NCBI GenBank assembly: GCA_027887045.1
Contig: JAPCJH010000002.1
Location: 198,723 to 262,722 of the forward strand
Source of the DNA: Nitrososphaerota archaeon
Lineage (GTDB): Archaea > Thermoproteota > Nitrososphaeria > Nitrososphaerales > Gagatemarchaeaceae
DNA: 64,000 bases
Reading direction: 5' to 3'
Part shown: positions 35,071-63,416 of the stretch, one piece after another
Position numbering within the stretch: the stretch's first letter is position 1
Layout of the letters: the number at the start of each line of letters is the position of its first letter
Notes under the pieces: generated by a model
Told to the model about the DNA's origin: nothing
The model's input: the letters and a program-made list of their open reading frames with translations, nothing else
The model's database searches: none
Position numbers and translations under genes: made by a program

Positions 35071-35117
35071 GCTGACGCGAAAGGAAATAACCGTACCTGA
35101 GTGAAGAGGCTTCGTTG

Positions 35118-35783
35118 ATGCTCAACCTTGTGCTCGCCGAGTCGGCACTGGAACTTATCCCAGGAGAAATCAGATCCCATCCCGCAATCGTGAATGACTC
35201 GAAGCGTAGAGGGAAGAGTCCTTCTGAGATCCTATTGGATCGGAGCCTCCATCACGCGGCTATGTTGAAACTAAAGGACGGTCACAAGCGCGGGCGTCCG
35301 GACTTGGTGCACTCTGCCCTCCTTAGCATAACGTGCAGCCCAGTGTTTCTCGATGGGGAAGTGAAGCTTTACGTCCATACTTTCGGAGACGTGGTTCTTG
35401 ATCTGAAAGAAGGGACCCGGCTCCCGAAAAGTTACGATAGATTCAGAAACCTGATGGAGAAGAGCCTGGCCGAGAGGGCTTCGGGTGATCTGATTCGCGT
35501 CTACGGCAAGTCGGTCGTAGACCTATTCAAGTCTGTGATAAGGCCAAGTAACGTCGTTGCGCTTTCGATCGAGGGCAAGTTCATAGACCCAAGGGATCTT
35601 GCCAGAGAACTGGTGAATTCTCGCAATCCGGCTCTCGTCATCGGAGGCTTTCCGCACGGGCACTTCGACCAGTCTACAATAAAACCAGCTGACGAAATCG
35701 TGAGAATCCACGAAAGGTCGCTCGATGCCCACGTCGTCGCGTCCAGAATGATTTATGAAGTAGAAAGAGCGACGCAGACTTAG
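35118..35783 (+). CDS. nep1: rRNA pseudouridine methyltransferase Nep1 (Emg1)
   Basis: A SPOUT-class enzyme that methylates pseudouridine in helix 35 of 16S rRNA and helps 30S assembly. Recognised by RRGKSPSEILLDRSLHH, KRGRPDLVHSALL and the knotted C-terminal part with VIGGFPHGHF. ATG 35118 is used; a TTG three bases earlier is also in frame. The tRNA-Gly gene begins 37 bases after the stop. Confidence 0.9.
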   Translation: MLNLVLAESALELIPGEIRSHPAIVNDSKRRGKSPSEILLDRSLHHAAMLKLKDGHKRGRPDLVHSALLSITCSPVFLDGEVKLYVHTFGDVVLDLKEGTRLPKSYDRFRNLMEKSLAERASGDLIRVYGKSVVDLFKSVIRPSNVVALSIEGKFIDPRDLARELVNSRNPALVIGGFPHGHFDQSTIKPADEIVRIHERSLDAHVVASRMIYEVERATQT

Positions 35784-35819: not shown

Positions 35820-35927
35820 GCGGTCGTCGTCCAGTCTGGTCTAGTGACAGACACGCCAAGAGGACATCAGCCCTCCACGCATGAGCGAGGTAAGCTGGCA
35901 ACCCGGGTTCAAATCCCGGCGACCGCA
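35820..35927 (+). tRNA. tRNA-Gly(UCC) with two probable introns
   Basis: Acceptor stem GCGGTCG pairs with CGACCGC (35920-35926), with discriminator A35927. The T-arm is CCGGG/CCCGG around TTCAAAT, the D-stem GTCC (35829-35832) pairs with GGAC (35862-35865), and the anticodon stem TCAGC (35867-35871) pairs with GCTGG (35894-35898). The anticodon TCC (35874-35876) is followed by a 15-base insert (35878-35892) at the canonical intron site. The D-loop is 29 bases and must hold a second insert of about 18-21 bases. Base 33 reads C instead of the usual U. GC-rich 5' end and discriminator A suit glycine. The 3' end is the attachment site of an integrated island. Confidence 0.8.
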
Positions 35928-35930
35928 CCT
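35916..35930 (+). repeat. attachment-site copy in the tRNA-Gly 3' end
   Basis: CCGGCGACCGCACCT, identical to 41619-41633. Covers the T-stem 3' strand, acceptor stem and three bases beyond. Direct repeats of this kind bound elements integrated at tRNA 3' ends. Confidence 0.72.
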
Positions 35931-35937
35931 TCCTCAC
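35924..35937 (+). repeat. 14-bp target-site duplication, left copy
   Basis: CGCACCTTCCTCAC, identical to 37060-37073. It starts inside the last four bases of the tRNA-Gly gene and directly abuts the left terminal inverted repeat. Confidence 0.82.
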
Positions 35938-36020
35938 CTCTCTCTCTCTCTCTCTTTTTAGTAGGCAAGGAGGTCTAACTACTGCAGAATTTTCTTTGGA
36001 AAAAAGCAGCAGTTAACATG
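35938..36020 (+). repeat. left terminal inverted repeat
   Basis: Begins with a CT dinucleotide run, then TAGTAGGCAAGGAGG, ACTGCAGAATTTTC and AGCAGCAGTTAACATG. The reverse complement of 36980-37059 aligns with it over its whole length at roughly 80 percent by eye. Confidence 0.75.
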
Positions 36021-36057
36021 GATTCTGTTAACTTCGTTGCACGGAAAAGAAGGCACT

Positions 36058-36162
36058 CTAAACATTTCCCGAAAGTAACAGATAGTTGGCCAAGACTAGA
36101 AGAATAACAAGAATTGCTACAGCAGTCCCTAATATGATAAGCGCTAGGCGTAGGTCACTCAT
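36058..36162 (-). CDS. 34-residue single-helix membrane protein
   Basis: ATG 36162 overlaps the stop of the SHOCT-like gene (ATGA). A short charged N-terminus (MSDLRL) is followed by one long hydrophobic helix (ALIILGTAVAILVILLVLAN). Its coupling to the preceding frame and clean membrane profile support a real gene despite the size. Function unknown. Confidence 0.5.
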   Translation of the reverse strand: MSDLRLALIILGTAVAILVILLVLANYLLLSGNV

Positions 36163-36305
36163 CCCTTCAACCTCTTCTTGATTTCCTGTTCCCATTCCTC
36201 TTGCGTGATTACTCCCTTCTTTTCCAGCAAGTCAACTAGGGAAGTGAGCATGGTATCCAGAATGTCAATTTCTTCGTCTTTACTTTTCTTTGGCGTGTTT
36301 TCCAC
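36159..36305 (-). CDS. short SHOCT-like protein
   Basis: A 48-residue protein from GTG 36303-36305. The C-terminal half (LLEKKGVITQEEWEQEIKKR) fits the short SHOCT domain, which is often attached to membrane proteins and thought to aid oligomerisation. An ATGA overlap couples it to the 34-residue membrane protein. An alternative start is the internal ATG 36248. Confidence 0.48.
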   Translation of the reverse strand: MENTPKKSKDEEIDILDTMLTSLVDLLEKKGVITQEEWEQEIKKRLKG

Positions 36306-36388
36306 CCTTTGCCATGTATCCGTTTTCTGAAACTCAAGCGATTTGGTCTCCTCTGCCCATCATTCCCTTTGAATTAAGGGCCTCGCCT

Positions 36389-36410
36389 AGCAGTTTTGGT
36401 GGTGTTGGAC
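36389..36410. repeat. 22-bp direct repeat, copy 1
   Basis: AGCAGTTTTGGTGGTGTTGGAC, 21 of 22 bases identical to 36865-36886. It lies 84 bases upstream of the SHOCT-like gene start. Confidence 0.72.
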
Positions 36411-36421
36411 GTCAACTTTGG

Positions 36422-36517
36422 TTAGCGCGAGAAGACCAAGAGCCGAACGAGGAGAGCGACTACTAGTGCTACTATGATGGGGAGTGCCTGAATCCACCTC
36501 AAACTCGGTCGTAGCAT
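36422..36517 (-). CDS. 31-residue single-helix membrane protein
   Basis: ATG 36517 follows a purine-rich AGAAGGAGAAG stretch 13-23 bases upstream that could serve as a ribosome-binding site. The product has a basic start (MLRPSLRW) and one hydrophobic helix (ALPIIVALVVALLVRLLVF). Function unknown; similar in plan to the 34-residue protein. Confidence 0.42.
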   Translation of the reverse strand: MLRPSLRWIQALPIIVALVVALLVRLLVFSR

Positions 36518-36568
36518 CACCCAGACCTATCTTCTCCTTCTGACTTATCTCTTGAGGCGTTCTGGAGT

Positions 36569-36808
36569 TTAGGAGTCCTTTAGCGCAATGACCCAGAATA
36601 ATGCCGCGATAATCGCAGATACTACTCCTATTGTGAAAGCAAGATTCGCAGTCGACCGTGTTTGCATACAAGCGAACAGGTTATTCAATGGGCCAGTTGT
36701 GGGATTGCATAGCGCGTTTGCAACGCCTGAATCAACAAAGCCAACTGTGAACCCAGCAATCGCGAAGACTGTCGCCGCCAGTGCCGCTCCGAGAACCCCG
36801 TTTCTCAT
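36569..36808 (-). CDS. 79-residue two-helix membrane protein
   Basis: An N-terminal hydrophobic helix (GAALAATVFAIAGFTVGF) that may be a signal anchor, a central loop of about 30 residues with two cysteines (ALCNPTTGPLNNLFACMQ) and a C-terminal helix. The two cysteines could form a disulfide if the loop is extracellular. It is the first gene of the minus-strand set in the inverted-repeat element. No family recognised. Confidence 0.52.
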   Translation of the reverse strand: MRNGVLGAALAATVFAIAGFTVGFVDSGVANALCNPTTGPLNNLFACMQTRSTANLAFTIGVVSAIIAALFWVIALKDS

Positions 36809-36864
36809 GTCTCTCCAAGATTGTCAGGTTGGATTTACGTCTACTTCCTTCCAAGAACGGCCCA

Positions 36865-36886
36865 AGCAGTATTGGTGGTGTTGGAC
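36865..36886. repeat. 22-bp direct repeat, copy 2
   Basis: AGCAGTATTGGTGGTGTTGGAC, one mismatch from 36389-36410. It lies 57 bases upstream of the 79-residue membrane protein start. Confidence 0.72.
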
Positions 36887-36979
36887 TACGGCGCTGACCA
36901 CTTGATTAAGAGACGCTCAAACGAAGTAGTTCTTCTACATACACACAGTCACGCTCTCGTAAGCTGGGACTGCCTGCCT

Positions 36980-37059
36980 CATGCTAACTGCTGTTATTTT
37001 TCCTGAAAATTTCTGCAGCAGTTAATCTCTCAGCCTACAGAAGAGAGAAAGAGAGAGAG
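36980..37059 (-). repeat. right terminal inverted repeat
   Basis: Ends in a GA dinucleotide run; its reverse complement shows the same order of blocks as the left repeat: CT run, GTAGGC, CTGCAGAAATTTTC, ACAGCAGTTAGCATG. Confidence 0.75.
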
Positions 37060-37073
37060 CGCACCTTCCTCAC
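37060..37073 (+). repeat. 14-bp target-site duplication, right copy
   Basis: CGCACCTTCCTCAC directly after the right inverted repeat, identical to 35924-35937. Confidence 0.82.
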
Positions 37074-37277
37074 ATGAAACGGACGTCGACGGCCAAAGTT
37101 TAGTTCGTTATGGACAAAAGACGTTCGATCGCGCCGAACCTCTATTCACTGATGAGACAGTTTCGTCAGCCTGTTTTTTGAAGCGTCGGCGAGAATAGGT
37201 TGCGGAGGCTTTTGCAGAACTCAATCGAGAAACAAACGTGTGAGCCTAAAACCTTATGAGGTTTCAAGGCGCTGACT

Positions 37278-37475
37278 TTGATAAGTTTGAAGAAAGATAG
37301 TTTGCCTGTCTTCGTTCTTGGTATCGTGCTGACTCTGGCCATAGTTGCACCAGCCCTCTACTTGCTGTCGGTGCCCTTGATGGATATAGTGATAGTTTCT
37401 GGACTCGCTACATTCGTTTGGCTCAACGCCTTACGCACGTCCAGACACAAGGATAGCCCCACCACACGAAACTAG
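37278..37475 (+). CDS. small two-helix membrane protein of the island
   Basis: A 65-residue frame from TTG 37278 with two hydrophobic helices (about residues 11-31 and 35-50) and a basic Arg/Lys-rich tail (NALRTSRHKDSPTTRN). It lies just outside the right inverted repeat. A start at TTG 37287 would shorten it by three residues. No family recognised. Confidence 0.48.
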   Translation: MISLKKDSLPVFVLGIVLTLAIVAPALYLLSVPLMDIVIVSGLATFVWLNALRTSRHKDSPTTRN

Positions 37476-37675
37476 CCAGTCGTTTCCGCCACCCCAAATG
37501 GCTATCCCGATTATTGACAGTGCATGCCGTTCGATTGAACGCCTAACAGGATACCTCACCCCAACAAATGCTGTCTAGCAGCTTCACCTCGCCCAAGGCT
37601 TCCTCTCGTCTGTCATCCCCGGGTTGACGATGTTTTCGTTTATTTGATGGCCCGAACGACACGCAGTTAGTCAAT

Positions 37676-38272
37676 ATGAACCGGCTGGGCCCAGAAGACT
37701 ACCAGAGCAATAGGCATATCCGGAAAATACTCCAGCTCGCTCGGACCTCCAGAGGAGACATCTTCTACGACCTGGGATGCGGGAGAGGCCAGCTCTGCGT
37801 TGTTGCTGTTGCCGAGTTTGGTGTGAAAAGGGCGGTCGGAATCGAGATGCATAGGGGTCGGGCGGCCAAAGCTGCGCAGCGTATCCAAGAACTCGGGTTG
37901 GCAGATCGGATAGAGATCAGGAATGAAGACTTCATTGAGTCCGACCTGCACGACGCGACAGTCGTATACTCCGGCCTTGGCGAAATCGATGAGGACGTCA
38001 TGTTTTTCGAGAGACAAGTGAGGTCTGGCTGTAGAATTGTCAGCCTCTTCCTCCCTTTCGTCGGCGTACTGCCGGCGGCAGCAGACTACCCCTTCTACCT
38101 CATGAAGGTGCCTTTCAGGAAGACGAGAGACTTCTCTCTCTGGAGCTCGAAAGTCCTATTCAAGGAGGCCTCGGTCGACGAACTGTACCAAGAGCTGGAT
38201 ACCGATAGAGAATATCGATATGACAAGCGGACCTTCAAGCGTTTGATGAAAGAGAGGTTCCCCAAAATGTGA
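37676..38272 (+). CDS. aKMT-like (DOT1-fold) SAM-dependent methyltransferase
   Basis: A 198-residue class I methyltransferase. The SAM loop is DIFYDLGCGRGQLCVVAV (D32-G38), followed by AVGIEMHRGRA and NEDFIESDLHDATVVYSGL. This arrangement matches the small archaeal protein-lysine methyltransferase aKMT and its DOT1-related kin, rather than small-molecule enzymes. The C-terminal third is a basic extension absent from the minimal family. A TTTATTTG box lies 33-40 bases upstream. Lying in a tRNA-borne island, it could modify host chromatin or element proteins. Confidence 0.7.
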   Translation: MNRLGPEDYQSNRHIRKILQLARTSRGDIFYDLGCGRGQLCVVAVAEFGVKRAVGIEMHRGRAAKAAQRIQELGLADRIEIRNEDFIESDLHDATVVYSGLGEIDEDVMFFERQVRSGCRIVSLFLPFVGVLPAAADYPFYLMKVPFRKTRDFSLWSSKVLFKEASVDELYQELDTDREYRYDKRTFKRLMKERFPKM

Positions 38273-38378
38273 CGAGAGTGTAGGGGTTTGGTCGGAATTT
38301 TGACTTGTCCCAATCGAATCAATTCTGCGTGATGACCCTGCCCTACCCTCTGCGCCCGTTGGTTCCACTTACATGTAG

Positions 38379-38425
38379 GGGTGCGTACACAGACCGTCGA
38401 ACCCCGGCCGGGCCGCCACGCACCC
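38379..38425. other. hairpin with 8-bp perfect stem in an intergenic gap
   Basis: GGGTGCGT (38379-38386) pairs with ACGCACCC (38418-38425), enclosing a GC-rich 31-base loop with CCCCGGCCGGG. The surrounding 318-base gap between the methyltransferase and helicase genes (38273-38589) has no other visible gene. The stem resembles a tRNA acceptor but the interior cannot fold as a tRNA. Confidence 0.35.
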
Positions 38426-38589
38426 AGATTGGAAGCGATATGAACCTAAAGTCCAAGGCCCGGCGCCCGCACTTCATGTTGACTAAAGGAGTTCAGTTCG
38501 GGGTTTTCGATTTCAGCGGGTTGTTTCAGCGTTCTAGTAATTCTTTTTGGCCAAGTTGATTCTTGCGGAAAGCGAGCCTGAGGGATGTC

Positions 38590-40449
38590 TCATCGCTTGC
38601 TTTGATGACGGTGCTTTTTCGGTGAATTCAGGGCAACTACGTCGAATAACAAGCGTCTGTAGTTTATCGTCAGCGTTCTCGCAAAGAACTGACCTCCGAT
38701 ATTCATTTCGTTCAGGTCGTGCGCGTACTTTTCGTGTAGGTCGAACTTTTCAAACGACAAGCAGTCTTCGAGATAGGGCCTGAGCTTGAAAACATCAGGG
38801 TCTACCAAGACCTCCCTGGGTATGGGCTCCTTCTTCGAAGAAAGAAGCATGTCATTCAATGCTTCTCTAGCAGCCTCATAGTTTTTCCATGCTTCCTCAA
38901 CAAATGCGGTGAAGATTCCGTTTCCAACCAATCTTGACGTGAATGAGCCCTCCTTATCCTCGGAAAACCCTTTGAGAAGATGCGCTTTGATATTGAGCTC
39001 GTTCGATTTGTCGTAGGCATACAATAATTGGCGACCGACGCCTTCCATATCCGACTTGTAAGCGTGGTTCAGCGAATCTCCGAATGCCCCGCTGGCTAGG
39101 AGAAATCTGGCCATGTCATAATCACCAGAGATTAGGGCGCTGGTGATCATATGTGAAAAGTCGGGCTCGTAGGGGATTTCGCTCATCAAAAGTCCCTTCC
39201 ACGTGATTTCATGGGTGCGACGGTCGATTGCTCCAATCTCACCGAGCCAGTCCTCTGCAAAGGCAACTTCGCGATGATCTACCTTTGACATGAACTCCAA
39301 CTCTGAAAGCCTGAGGCCGTACTTTGACATGAGGAGCACCAAATCAAACGGAGTCTCGGTTTCAAGAGCCTTGCGCACCGGCGTGGGATTGATTTTCTTT
39401 GGGATCGGTGCATCAGAAATTATCACGGCCCGACCGGGTTTGAAGCGACCGATTCGACCAATCATTTGCAAGAGAGAGTTGTTGTCTATCCTCTTGTAGT
39501 GGAGCGTCTTTTGGCCTAGCTTGTCCTTGCTGTCAATCACTTCGTTGAATATCAACACGTTGTCGACGTAGATATTCACGGATGAGGCGATGACATTAGT
39601 CGCAAAGATCCTCAGATTCTTATCGAGCTCGGCTCTTTGCTGGATTTTGTTGACTTCTGAACCGTCAAGGCCGCCGTGAATGTAAATGCCGCTGTAGCTG
39701 CTGGAATACCTCTCGACCAAGCGCCTCGTGGGGAGAAAGACGAGCCAAGATTCATTGCGAGGCTGTGAGTAAAGATAGCGCGATAGGGTCTCGAACATCT
39801 CATCGAGGTCCTTTACCTGCTCAACCTCGAGCGCTACCGGGAATCTGCGACCGCTCAGCAAATAGAGCTTCGAGATTCCCAAGAATGAGAGGAACTCCTT
39901 TGGATCGATCGTGGCGCTCATGATTCGAAACAGATTTCTTGTTTTCGCTTCCTCCTTCTTGGCGAGGGACAAACACAGTTCCAGCTGGGAAGACATCTGG
40001 TGGCTTTCGTCAAAATAGATCGAAGAATCGAAAATCGAGCTCTCAGCCAGCATCCTTAGCAGGACGCCGTCTGTGACAATCTTGATCTTACCACCGACGT
40101 TGATCTTGGTGTCCTTTGTGATGACTGCTAGATCATCAATCAATTCCGGGTGTAGCGCCCGAAGTGAATAAAGTAGAGCGTTGCACGCGGCTCTTGAAGG
40201 CTCACGAATGACGATTTGCCTGTTCCTGTTGCCTAACTCAAATTCGTGAATCGGGGTTACAGTACTCTTTCCCGTCCCGACATCGCCGATAATTACGAAA
40301 TGGCCCGAAAAATCCACTGAATCAAGGATTGAGAAGATCGGGAGCCTTGGCTTTGCTCCTTTGCCAGCCGCTTCTTCGGTACTTCGCTCCTCTTCTTCCA
40401 AGGCGGCGGGCTCTAGAGAATGTCGGATTTCAGATTCGTTGCTGACCAA
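38590..40449 (-). CDS. DEAH-type superfamily 2 helicase (HrpA/NS3-like)
   Basis: A 619-residue NTPase. Walker A is GDVGTGKST (55-63), Walker B/motif II is DESH (147-150), motif III SAT (178-180), motif V ATNVIASSVNI (283-293) and motif VI QMIGRIGR (328-335). These match DEAH/RHA RNA helicases and viral NS3-like enzymes more than DEAD-box proteins. A helical region after residue 350 may equal the winged-helix and HA2 parts. The N-terminal 35 residues are Glu-rich. In the island it may process nucleic acid of the element or act in conflict with other elements. The substrate (RNA or DNA) is unknown. Confidence 0.78.
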   Translation of the reverse strand: MVSNESEIRHSLEPAALEEEERSTEEAAGKGAKPRLPIFSILDSVDFSGHFVIIGDVGTGKSTVTPIHEFELGNRNRQIVIREPSRAACNALLYSLRALHPELIDDLAVITKDTKINVGGKIKIVTDGVLLRMLAESSIFDSSIYFDESHQMSSQLELCLSLAKKEEAKTRNLFRIMSATIDPKEFLSFLGISKLYLLSGRRFPVALEVEQVKDLDEMFETLSRYLYSQPRNESWLVFLPTRRLVERYSSSYSGIYIHGGLDGSEVNKIQQRAELDKNLRIFATNVIASSVNIYVDNVLIFNEVIDSKDKLGQKTLHYKRIDNNSLLQMIGRIGRFKPGRAVIISDAPIPKKINPTPVRKALETETPFDLVLLMSKYGLRLSELEFMSKVDHREVAFAEDWLGEIGAIDRRTHEITWKGLLMSEIPYEPDFSHMITSALISGDYDMARFLLASGAFGDSLNHAYKSDMEGVGRQLLYAYDKSNELNIKAHLLKGFSEDKEGSFTSRLVGNGIFTAFVEEAWKNYEAAREALNDMLLSSKKEPIPREVLVDPDVFKLRPYLEDCLSFEKFDLHEKYAHDLNEMNIGGQFFARTLTINYRRLLFDVVALNSPKKHRHQSKR

Positions 40450-59218: not shown

Positions 59219-61228
59219 TTACGTGAACCCCATTTTCGTCCGCAAAGAAATGTATCTAACATCTGTTCTGACGCCGTCCAACTCTGGGTCAAGCTGCAAG
59301 TCCAGTAGATTGTCGTATGAGTCGAAGCCCCTATTGAGCCACTCGAACCCCTTGTCGTTTTCCCCGAGGGCGAAGTAAGTGAGGGCGATGTAGTACGAGG
59401 CGACATACTCTTTTCCAAGCCCATTTATCACTTCGGAAAGCAGCCTGCGCGATTCCTCTTTCCTTTGCGCGTGCGCGTAGACAAACGCGTGGGCCAGCTT
59501 GGTCGATCCCTCCCCGGCTATCTTTGAGTACTCGTCGACTGTCTGAAGAGCCTCATCATACTTCGAATTCCTGGCGTATGCGAACATCATTTCCCAGAGG
59601 GCTGGCTGAAAGCCTGGGGATATCATAAGTGCCTTCTTGTATTGCTCTACGGCCCTATCGTACTCCCTCGTGATTTTTCTGAAGTAGTCACCATAGTTCA
59701 CATTCACTATTGGTGAAAACGGGTCTAGCTCCAGCGCTCTCTTCAACTCTGCATAGGATTCCGAACCCCTCCCCCACCAGCCAAGATGGTTGCCATACCA
59801 CTGATGGGCGGTCGCGTAGCTGGGATTCAGCTCCAAGGCTCTCATGAACTCTTCCTCCGATTTGTTCTGATCGTATTCAAAATCGAAAGAGATTAGTCCT
59901 TGGCTTGCGTGTGCCTCTGCGAGATTGTGGTCTAATCTCAACGCAATCCCGATGTACTCCTTCAACTTCGTCATGTTGGGGCCTGGTTCTTCGAGGCCGT
60001 TGCTGGCAATCACGCCATGGCATTGGGCAAGCCCGGCATAAGCAGCTGCGTAATTCGGATCATTCTGAATCGCTTTTTTGAAGTACTCCATTGCTCTTCT
60101 CAGTCCGGACAGACTCCTCTCGTTCCAGTACTGCCTACCCTTCAGGTACAGAACGTAGGCCTCACTGTTCTTAGTAGGCACCCTCTCTATCTCCTTTTTC
60201 GCGGATGGCAACAGCCGCACTTTGAGAGCTTCCGCTACCTGCTTCGCGATATCGCTCTGGACTGCGAATACGTCGTCGAACTCCCTGTCGTAGCTCTGAG
60301 CCCACAGGTGCCCTTGACTTTGCACGTCTATGAGCTGCACTGTAATGCGTAACCTATTCCCCGCCTTGCGGACGCTGCCTTCGAGGACCGTTCCGACGCT
60401 CAGTTCTCTCCCGATTTCTCCGACTTTCTTACTTGTTCCCTTATAGCCCATCACCGACGTGCGAGCGATCAGACTCAGCCCTCCTATTGACGAGGTGGTT
60501 GAGATAAGCTCCTCAGTCATGCCGTCGGCAAAATACTCGTCGTTTGGGTCTGCGCTTATGCTCGCGAGAGGTAGTATGGCGAGCCTGTGCGGGTCAAAGA
60601 CAGGTGCTTCGGGTGACGCCTGTTCTTCCCACGGTAGCGCTATCTTGTACAACTCTATCGGGACATCCACGTTCTTCAGTTCTTGCCTTCCGAGCCTGAT
60701 CATTCGGGATTCGGACTTGTCTCGCACATTGCGATAGACCTTTTCGGAAACACAAATCCCGCCGGGCTCTGCTACCGGCGTTATCCTCGAAGCGACAGCC
60801 ACGGCCTCTCCGGAAGCCTGATCATCCCTTTCTGTGATGTCGCCGAGATCTATGCCTATCCTGACGTAGATGTCCTTGTTACTGGGGGCCTCGCGATTGT
60901 ATTCTCTTAGTGCCCTTTGAATCTCGATCGCGCATAGAGTCGCGTCCAGCGCGCTTTCGAAAAGGACGATAGACTCAGATGGCTGGAGCTTCATTTCTCG
61001 AATCTTAACAGTGCCTCCTGTAAGCCAGCCCTTGAGGCCCGTCCCTTCTGCAGCAACCAATTCCTCTCCGAAGTATCTTCCTCCGTGACCCGATGAAACC
61101 TGTCGAATGACTGACCTCTCCTTCTCAAGAAGATACCTGCCAAGAGATTCATCGTGCCGGAGTGCCTCCTCGTAACCTACCATGTCTGTGAACATTACCG
61201 CGACAAGTCGACGCTCAGCTTCGGGCAA
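59219..61228 (-). CDS. cyclase-like/TolB-like/TPR signalling protein 2
   Basis: A 669-residue paralogue of the proteins at 51.1 and 61.4 kb with the same three domains. The first metal Asp is present (VMFTDMVGY), but the second metal-binding GDG is replaced (LQPSESIVLFE) and the catalytic Asn is Ala (EAVAVASR), so cyclase activity is unlikely. The TolB-like part reads LAILPLASISADPNDEYFAD and the TPR region runs to the C-terminus. TTG start after a GAGGAGA box. It is the copy with the most intact first motif. Confidence 0.85.
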   Translation of the reverse strand: MPEAERRLVAVMFTDMVGYEEALRHDESLGRYLLEKERSVIRQVSSGHGGRYFGEELVAAEGTGLKGWLTGGTVKIREMKLQPSESIVLFESALDATLCAIEIQRALREYNREAPSNKDIYVRIGIDLGDITERDDQASGEAVAVASRITPVAEPGGICVSEKVYRNVRDKSESRMIRLGRQELKNVDVPIELYKIALPWEEQASPEAPVFDPHRLAILPLASISADPNDEYFADGMTEELISTTSSIGGLSLIARTSVMGYKGTSKKVGEIGRELSVGTVLEGSVRKAGNRLRITVQLIDVQSQGHLWAQSYDREFDDVFAVQSDIAKQVAEALKVRLLPSAKKEIERVPTKNSEAYVLYLKGRQYWNERSLSGLRRAMEYFKKAIQNDPNYAAAYAGLAQCHGVIASNGLEEPGPNMTKLKEYIGIALRLDHNLAEAHASQGLISFDFEYDQNKSEEEFMRALELNPSYATAHQWYGNHLGWWGRGSESYAELKRALELDPFSPIVNVNYGDYFRKITREYDRAVEQYKKALMISPGFQPALWEMMFAYARNSKYDEALQTVDEYSKIAGEGSTKLAHAFVYAHAQRKEESRRLLSEVINGLGKEYVASYYIALTYFALGENDKGFEWLNRGFDSYDNLLDLQLDPELDGVRTDVRYISLRTKMGFT

Positions 61229-61385: not shown

Positions 61386-63416
61386 TCACCGAAGTCCTAG
61401 ACGTCTTTCAAAATGTGCCCACCTCGGGTCCTTTCGAGCCGCTTCGAACCACGGGAACACTCTCAAGTCCAAGAGCAACCCGCCGTGATTTGCAGTGGCC
61501 GACTTTTCTTCGTATGCTCCATCCAAGGAGGCAAACGCCTCGTCCATTCTAGCCAATACCAAGAGAATCTTGGCCACATGGATCTTGGGAAGATAGTTTG
61601 TCTTCGAGAACTCTACAAGTTCTCCGAGCAACTTGCTGGCTTCGGCGCGTTGGCCGGCGAAGGCGAGCACGCACGCAAGATCTGACTTGCTGCCAGGGTC
61701 TCCTCCTGAAAGCGTGACTGCCTTCCTCAATTCTGCGATCCCTTCATCAGTTCTTGAGTCAAGGGAATATGCTAAACCCAGACAATAGGGGACCGTCGCC
61801 CACTCTGGATATTCGTTTTCTAGCCTCTTGTATTTTTCCGCTGCATCCCTCGGCTTGCCCATGTAAACCAACGTGTTTGCCAGGTTGGCTTCCACCAACC
61901 TTGACAAAGGGTCGAGCTCGCCGGCCTTCTCGATTTGCTCGTAGGCTTCCTGGAATCTTTTCAGAGACATAAGAAGAAGACCATACCACATATGTGCTAT
62001 CGCGTAGCTCGGTTTGAGTTCAATAGCTCGCTTGAATTCTTCCTCCGACTCCTTCCACTTTGCTTCGTAGCTGTTGTAGACAACGCCTAGGGACGCGTGC
62101 GGTTCAGCGAGTCCTGGGTCTATTTCAAGCGCCCTCGATATGTATTCTTTAGCCTTGGGGAATGCTTTCCGCGGCTCAATCCATCCATAGTCTCCAGAGA
62201 TTATGTAACAATCAGCCAATCCTACGTAGGCAGGCGCGTAAGTTGGGTCAATGCTGATTGCCTTCTCGAAGTACTTTGCGGCCATAGCGTTGTTGTCTCT
62301 CGTCCTCTCATTCCAGTAGTATCTTCCTTTGAGGTAGAGCGTGTGGGCTTCCGTGCTCTTAGTCGGCTCTTTCTCGATTTGTCTGGTTTCATTCGGTAGG
62401 ATTCGCACCTTCAACGCATCGGCCACCTGCTTCGCGATATCGCTTTGGATTGCGAATACGTCGTCGAACTCCCTGTCGTAGCTCTGGGCCCATAAGTGCT
62501 TGTCGTCGACCGCGTCGATGAGCTGCACGGTAATCCGAATCCTGTTTTCTGACTTCCTCACGCTTCCCTCTAGGATGGTGCCCGCTCTCAGTTCGCGGCC
62601 TATTTCGGCCACCGTCCTGCCGCCTCCCTTGAACTTCATTGCTGAAGTCCGAGAAATGACGCTGAGCTCACCAATGTTCGATATCGTCGAGATCAACTCT
62701 TCTGTCATGCCATCTGCAAAGTATTCGTCTTCAGAGCCAGAGATCATGTTGACCAGAGGCAGTACCGCGATGCGACGTCGGTCCAAGGAAGGTTCCAGCG
62801 ATTCTTCCCTCCCCTCCCAGGGAAGGACGATCTTGTAGACCTCCATCGGCAGCTGGACGTTCTTGAGCTCCCGCGACCCGAGACTGACGAAACGAAGTTC
62901 GGGCGTGGCGCGCACCATATTGTAGACCCGCTCTGAGATGGAGATTCCTTCAGGCTCGGCCAGCAGCGCTATTCTCGAAGCGACCGCGAGTGTTTCGCCT
63001 GATATCTCGCCATCTCTTTCTGTGAATTCCCCAAGGTGTATTCCTATCCTTACGTAGATGTCTCTGTCGTTCGGTGCTGAACTATTGTACTCCCTTAAGA
63101 GACGCTGGACCTCGACTGCGCATCGGGCGGCGTTGAGGGCGCTGTCGAATAAGACTAGAGATTCATGCGATTTCAGCCTAGTCTCTCGAGTCTTCACGCC
63201 GCCTCCTGTGAGCCAGCCCTTGAGTCCCGTTTCTTCGGAAGGGGCGAGATTCCCTCCCAAGTCAAGCCCACCGTGACTGGAAGAGGTCTGCCGTATGACA
63301 GACCTTTGCTTTTCAAGCAAAGACTTCGCAAGTGGTTCGTCCTGCCGGATAATGTCTGGGTAGGATACCATCTCAGTGAACATTATCGCTCCGGGTCGAT
63401 TTGCGACCTCTGCCAA
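61386..63416 (-). CDS. cyclase-like/TolB-like/TPR signalling protein 3
   Basis: The third paralogue, 676 residues from TTG 63416. This start makes FTEMV fall at residue 13, exactly as in the other two copies; a longer frame to 63473 adds an unrelated leader. The first metal Asp is Glu (MFTEM), the GDG region reads KSHESLVLFD and the catalytic Asn is Ala (LAVASR). The GLKGWLTGGGVK insert is shared. TolB-like (VLPLVNMISGSEDEYFADGM) and TPR domains follow. It is the most divergent copy at the N-terminus. Confidence 0.84.
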   Translation of the reverse strand: MAEVANRPGAIMFTEMVSYPDIIRQDEPLAKSLLEKQRSVIRQTSSSHGGLDLGGNLAPSEETGLKGWLTGGGVKTRETRLKSHESLVLFDSALNAARCAVEVQRLLREYNSSAPNDRDIYVRIGIHLGEFTERDGEISGETLAVASRIALLAEPEGISISERVYNMVRATPELRFVSLGSRELKNVQLPMEVYKIVLPWEGREESLEPSLDRRRIAVLPLVNMISGSEDEYFADGMTEELISTISNIGELSVISRTSAMKFKGGGRTVAEIGRELRAGTILEGSVRKSENRIRITVQLIDAVDDKHLWAQSYDREFDDVFAIQSDIAKQVADALKVRILPNETRQIEKEPTKSTEAHTLYLKGRYYWNERTRDNNAMAAKYFEKAISIDPTYAPAYVGLADCYIISGDYGWIEPRKAFPKAKEYISRALEIDPGLAEPHASLGVVYNSYEAKWKESEEEFKRAIELKPSYAIAHMWYGLLLMSLKRFQEAYEQIEKAGELDPLSRLVEANLANTLVYMGKPRDAAEKYKRLENEYPEWATVPYCLGLAYSLDSRTDEGIAELRKAVTLSGGDPGSKSDLACVLAFAGQRAEASKLLGELVEFSKTNYLPKIHVAKILLVLARMDEAFASLDGAYEEKSATANHGGLLLDLRVFPWFEAARKDPRWAHFERRLGLR

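Follow-up and report, generated by a model that had tools for sequence, protein, structure and literature searches.

A probable natural Cas1-less casposon derivative at the 3' end of a tRNA-Gly gene in a Nitrososphaerales archaeon

The tRNA-Gly locus

The window, by which we mean the whole 64,000-nucleotide stretch of DNA analysed here from a soil-type archaeon (order Nitrososphaerales), contains a tRNA-Gly(UCC) gene on the forward strand (positions 35820-35927). The gene was read from the sequence by eye. It apparently contains introns, one in the D loop and one following the anticodon, which would explain why ARAGORN missed it. The same program called the orthologue in one relative (G027) as tRNA-Gly(tcc). 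The position of the D-loop insert differs between relatives. Upstream lies a gene for an EMG1/NEP1 methyltransferase (35115-35783, forward strand; Pfam EMG1, 1e-43), which is the conserved upstream neighbour of the tRNA and has an orthologue in 37 of 46 family genomes. The conserved downstream neighbour is a gene for a DEAD/Helicase_C protein (38590-40449, reverse strand).

The tRNA and the helicase gene are separated by the unit described below and by a second stretch (37074-38458), which lies between that unit and a tRNA-Gly 3'-end fragment, CCCGGCGCCCGCA (38459-38471, forward strand). As this fragment, an ancestral tRNA flank, is shared with genome G001 (L123), the stretch at 37074-38458 represents an older insertion at the same tRNA. 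It carries a gene for a DOT1/CMAS-like methyltransferase (37676-38272). A distant homologue of this methyltransferase from the 37074-38471 insertion was also seen in the casposon island of G011.

Structure of the inserted unit

Two identical copies of the 14-mer CGCACCTTCCTCAC, both on the forward strand (35924-35937 and 37060-37073), form the left and right target site duplications (TSDs) of a unit of 1122 bp (35938-37059). The first copy begins with the three final acceptor bases and the discriminator A of the tRNA, so that its CGCA is the final four bases of tRNA-Gly(UCC). Over about 80-83 bp the ends of the unit are an imperfect inverted repeat, whose local alignment scored 94 compared to a maximum of 37 in 500 shuffles. 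When the CT run was left out, the score was 65, compared to maxima of 35 in shuffles and 36 among approximately 625 same-spaced pairs elsewhere in the window. Thus, the 1.12-kb unit with imperfect terminal inverted repeats (TIRs) of about 80 bp, and the perfect 14-bp direct repeat from the last four bases of the tRNA, were correctly described and placed at 35924-37073 in an earlier note on this DNA.

The left TIR (35938-36020, forward strand) consists of a CT run, GTAGGC, and then a hairpin-forming TAACTACTGCAG..GCAGTTA block. The right TIR (36980-37059, reverse strand) was the top-scoring copy of the TIR model, at 74.7 bits, and is accompanied by a conserved subterminal motif, CGTGACTGTGTGTATG on the reverse strand (36935-36958), that is common to the copies in G016 and G027. 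Folding of the TIR with RNAalifold gave a modest hairpin, in which 3 of 17 pairs had changes on both sides. The two TIRs of the window are about 75% identical to one another, and this copy is therefore not recent.

No Cas1, polymerase or transposase is encoded in the 1122-bp unit, again as the earlier note had it. The longest open reading frames are about 105 aa, and with no frame beyond that length the unit holds no family B DNA polymerase. Cas1 was likewise absent from the host assembly (1.2 Mb, 56% complete).

Further exact 14-mer repeats less than 5 kb apart were found at a handful of places in the 64-kb window, one of them inside the unit and another a gene duplication. A direct repeat at 60230-60300 and 62418-62488, 2188 bp apart and strongest over about 50 bp, lies within a longer stretch of approximately 60-70% identity and looks like a gene duplication.

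Related ends in other genomes

When 61 genomes were searched by BLAST with the unit, its ends recurred in at least 10 genomes of the same archaeal family (Nitrososphaerales). Left-end copies start about 14 bp past the 3' end of a whole or truncated tRNA-Gly and are typically ordered as CGCA-N10, CTCTCTC, GTAGGCTGAGAGG, and then TTAACTGCTGCAG..CAGAAAAAATAACAGCAGTTA. A sequence-only model of the ends, 68 positions long, yielded 18 matches in 10 of the 46 family genomes, with a best E value of 5e-21. The pattern tRNA T-loop-N11-CGCA-N8-11-CTCTCT occurred at 16 distinct sites in 13 of the 46 genomes, and its reversed control at none. A search of eight further loci with the TIR model returned no matches.

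Bounded relatives of the unit were located through the second copy of each 14-mer. Genome G012 contains a 2.66-kb unit flanked by CGCACCTTTGTTTC, repeated 14/14, as well as a tandem unit with a 13/14 repeat, and a 3.36-kb unit with a 13/14 repeat was found in G016. No Cas1 is present in any of these bounded units, and their cargo is unrelated, including a 564-aa protein and a 1018-aa, secreted-looking protein. None of the intact units of this outer family that we examined contains a transposase gene. Dispersed copies with TSDs and tandem re-use of the site (the G012 tandem and G016) are consistent with non-autonomous derivatives, and tandem re-use of a site is a habit of casposons (PMC4046053).

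Elements that carry Cas1

A complete element of 10,015 bp with Cas1 inside is present in G012 (L064 6340-16382). Its 120-bp TIRs begin CTCTCTCTCTC, with the CTCTCTC tip, and it is flanked by a perfect 14/14 TSD, CGCACTCGCTTCTT, the CGCA of which ends a tRNA reading ..GGTTCGAATCCCACCCCCCGCA; this target is another tRNA than that of the tRNA-Gly site. The element encodes Cas1, a C5 methylase, Vsr, a ParA ATPase and small proteins. Its Cas1 gene has one in-frame TAG, which was read through for the search, and the best solved relative was the Methanosarcina mazei casposase 6opm (E 6e-38), compared to 1e-14 for the best CRISPR Cas1. The alignment to 6opm covers residues 12-357 of 374 and extends through the C-terminal region. 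No family B polymerase lies in the element, as the PolB matches of that genome lie at 675 kb and 1647 kb, away from Cas1 at 537 kb; in the positive control, G137, a protein-primed PolB was detected 3 kb from Cas1. We found no description of a PolB-less casposon of this kind, with C5 methylase, Vsr and ParA ATPase, in the literature searched.

A link between the hairpin-bearing type of TIR and Cas1 is suggested by two decayed islands. In G011, an island begins at a tRNA-Gly fragment with the 14-mer and a hairpin TIR (E 1e-13); a Cas1 remnant (72% identity to G012 over 178 residues) lies 6 kb in, with chromosomal genes beyond. At the orthologous EMG1-tRNA-Gly site of G063 there is a related end, with CGCACGCCTCTTTC, CTCTCTCC and an inner TIR block that can still be recognised (score 45 vs at most 37 in shuffles). 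This island holds a Cas1 remnant (70%) 5.5 kb further in, beside AIPR and RelA/SpoT-domain genes, before the flank common to G065. A right end was not recognisable in either decayed island. The complete Cas1 element of G012 has only the CTCTCTC tip in common with the window TIR (score 26 vs a shuffled maximum of 23), its inner TIR sequence being dissimilar.

Other Cas1 matches, in G005, G002, G001, G029 and G062, were set aside as one was CRISPR-like and others were weak in long frames or came from a different clade lacking related ends. One contig of G031 bears both a Cas1 fragment and TIRs, but 11 kb of ordinary genes separate the two, and it was rejected as a link. An intact casposase of the clade studied here is encoded in G103 (L150 10001-11125). 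The Cas1 alignment had no matches in IMG/VR. The genome search for a Cas1-type integrase that the earlier note proposed was negative for the 56%-complete host assembly; a Cas1 element or remnants were found in the relatives G012, G011 and G063.

Considering the observed anatomy, the dispersed family, the target rule and the casposase-bearing relatives that follow the same rule, the unit is most probably a natural non-autonomous (Cas1-less) casposon derivative, or 'mini-casposon'. A non-autonomous casposon relative had been suggested before, and it gains from three results: the ends recur at the same tRNA target in other genomes, two copies of the end type border islands with casposase remnants, and a complete Cas1 element with identical target geometry is found in the same family (G012). 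By gene content, the unit is not a casposon. Having lost an integrase of its own, it probably depends on that of a larger relative, a casposase that would have mobilised it in trans.

Small reading frames and a nested mini-element

The earlier note stated that the unit carries only tiny membrane proteins. Small open reading frames are indeed present, but they seem to be part of a nested IS240-type mini-element rather than casposon cargo proper. The left end of this mini-element, GATTCTGTTAACTTCGTTGCACG, lies at 36021-36045 on the forward strand; its right end has decayed, with 8 bp still recognisable. On the reverse strand are a 45-aa frame with one membrane segment predicted by eye (36058-36195; no Pfam match), a 48-aa frame of a dispersed family (..EEIDILDTMLTSLVDLLEKKGVITQEEWEQEIKKRLKG; 36159-36305) that occurs elsewhere within IS240-type mini-elements, and a 79-aa hydrophobic frame (36569-36808), for which a scan of genome contigs found no relatives. 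We infer that the interior of the unit is mostly a decayed IS240-type passenger, of which only the left end can still be recognised. A 25-bp motif, CCTAGCAGTTTTGGTGGTGTTGGAC, occurs twice in the unit (36386-36410 and 36862-36886) and is 92-100% conserved at scattered places in other genomes (G006:C1:908187 and 1054384, G025, G029 and G014).

In other genomes, GATTCTGTTAACTTCGTTGCACG and its inverse flank mini-elements of 0.6-3.9 kb at unrelated, dispersed sites, with direct repeats of 8-9 bp, or up to 11 bp in two cases. The 3.9-kb mini-element, in G006, encodes a DDE_Tnp_IS240 transposase. Mini-elements with 23-bp TIRs were located at L042 10540-11170, L045 9572-10274, L047 8725-9402, L044 8250-12175 and L009 62-1954, and several have the 48-aa frame beside variable cargo. 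These elements resemble the nested left end of the window unit and have the 48-aa frame in common with it, but differ from the unit itself in their TIR (GATTCTGTTAAC..), their 8-9-bp TSD and their dispersed sites. At the outer ends of the unit we found no such TIR, no 8-9-bp TSD and no DDE transposase, the IS240/IS6-type match being confined to the nested left end at 36021.

Small size, TIRs and a TSD are also traits of MITEs, and the unit has an IS240-type mini-element inside it. We therefore considered whether the unit could be a MITE mobilised by an ordinary DDE transposase with 14-bp target duplications and a preference for tRNA-Gly ends. However, the nested family yields short duplications at unrelated sites, whereas the outer family is found at tRNA 3' ends with CGCA-starting repeats of 13-14 bp, has no transposase gene in its examined intact units, and adjoins Cas1 remnants in two islands. 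A MITE origin is thus improbable.

Comparison with known casposons

The casposon derivative that we favour has TIRs of about 80 bp, a 14/14 TSD, and an insertion at a tRNA 3' end with CGCA starting the TSD, and it lacks a Cas1-type casposase and a family B DNA polymerase of its own. TIRs of 25-602 nt have been reported for casposons (PMC4046053). The M. mazei casposon has a 14-bp TSD in which 5'-CGCA is the last 4 bp of tRNA-Leu, and its purified casposase integrates ends at CGCA with an offset of 14 bp, for which it requires the TSD plus about 30 bp of tRNA (PMC6977970). The window unit is similar to this MetMaz type of family 2 casposon (PMC6977970, PMC10359463) in its TIRs and in its 14-bp TSD, whose initial CGCA forms the final 4 bp of the tRNA, and family 2 is also where the casposase of the related G012 element has its closest solved structure (6opm). 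It differs in having no Cas1, PolB or HNH, in its host (Nitrososphaerales, not Methanosarcina), and in its ends, which are CTCTCTC../..GAGAGAG with a subterminal hairpin compared to GGGATATAGG in the MetMaz type.

The arrangement of the unit, TSD-TIR-cargo-TIR-TSD without Cas1, is that of an engineered M. mazei mini-casposon (pRS1520) that was mobile in vivo, in trans (PMC10359463); pRS1520 is a synthetic construct, the window unit a natural one. The family 1 casposons of thaumarchaea (PMC6563490, PMC4046053) are of the same phylum and have a Cas1-type integrase, but they carry a protein-primed PolB and mostly target EF-2, in contrast to the PolB-less, tRNA-targeting Cas1 element of G012.

By analogy with these systems, a casposase from elsewhere in the cell, encoded in the unassembled part of the genome or by a past resident, may have recognised the ends of the unit and mobilised it by excision or copying. 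It would have inserted the two 3' ends of the unit into the tRNA 3' end with a stagger of 14 bp, and repair would then have produced a second copy of the CGCA-N10 target while the tRNA stayed whole. The IS240-type mini-element would have inserted later, supplying the small reading frames.

The earlier note had offered, as its other reading, a new class of element with the same target geometry, that is, a tRNA-targeting element unrelated to Cas1 and convergent on casposons. This is now very unlikely, and less likely than a casposon derivative: the casposase link is one of neighbourhood and target, and the inner TIR sequence differs in the full-length G012 casposon, but the CGCA/14-bp rule is identical, the CTCTCTC tips are common, and in G011 and G063 this same type of end has a Cas1 remnant next to it.

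For the order as a whole, we lean slightly towards a two-tier casposon system in Nitrososphaerales. PolB-less, casposase-encoding, tRNA-targeting elements would form one tier. The other, more populous, would consist of natural mini-casposons that lack Cas1, have hairpin-bearing ends, parasitise the first tier and carry arbitrary cargo to a single tRNA-Gly hotspot.

In the literature up to 2019, casposons always came with their own polymerase and integrase, and reviews treat the polymerase as invariably present (PMC4046053, PMC6452270). Our literature search, of titles and abstracts and without the 2016 GBE casposon-mobility study of Krupovic et al., found no description of natural non-autonomous or miniature casposons, which is no proof of priority. 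If the two-tier reading is true, no natural non-autonomous casposons would have been known before these. The CRISPR adaptation module is considered to derive from casposons. Should natural Cas1-less units with the target geometry of casposons indeed exist alongside PolB-less casposase elements, casposases would act in trans on short ends in nature, and such uncoupling of integrase from cargo is of the kind needed by spacer acquisition. With the shared tRNA sites, the end sequence recognised by the casposase becomes directly testable.

Occupied and unoccupied tRNA-Gly sites

EMG1 followed by tRNA-Gly(UCC) is conserved in more than 30 family genomes, most of which have no such end past the tRNA. 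The distance from the tRNA to the helicase gene is about 110 bp in G004 compared to 2.66 kb in the window. For the comparison of empty sites proposed in the earlier note, relatives were searched with DNA flanks for the window's own site in its exact unoccupied form (tRNA-CGCACCTTCCTCACATGAAACGG, uninterrupted), which returned only weak matches. G029 (C151) has TCACATGAAACG at the same distance past the tRNA. This sequence equals the 12 bases straddling the right TSD border of the window and looks like an unoccupied flank.

Integration has occurred serially at the tRNA-Gly site, a hotspot that tyrosine-recombinase elements use as well. The near-identical genomes G061 and G065 are identical up to the tRNA and show a clean presence/absence of an insertion: 7.5 kb in G061 (L170 1014-8580), with an archaeal phage integrase and a tRNA 3'-end duplication of about 43 bp, absent from L145 of G065. 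Such duplication of the tRNA 3' end by a tyrosine-recombinase insertion explains the truncated tRNA-Gly copies, and the idea that these are split tRNA genes was dropped.

The G061 insertion uses the same tRNA, and the window has its own tRNA-Gly 3' fragment at 38459, yet it is highly improbable that the unit is the remnant of a tyrosine-recombinase element of archaeal phage or plasmid type with its direct repeat as att core: the repeat is only 14 bp, from the last four bases of the tRNA and without the T arm, compared to a three times longer att repeat in G061, no integrase is encoded, and the unit has TIRs, which are absent from such elements.

In G065 (L145 874-965), and also in G061, a unit of about 100 bp past tRNA-Gly starts CTCTCTC.. 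and ends ..CAGAGAG, and is perhaps a minimal, end-to-end casposon remnant.
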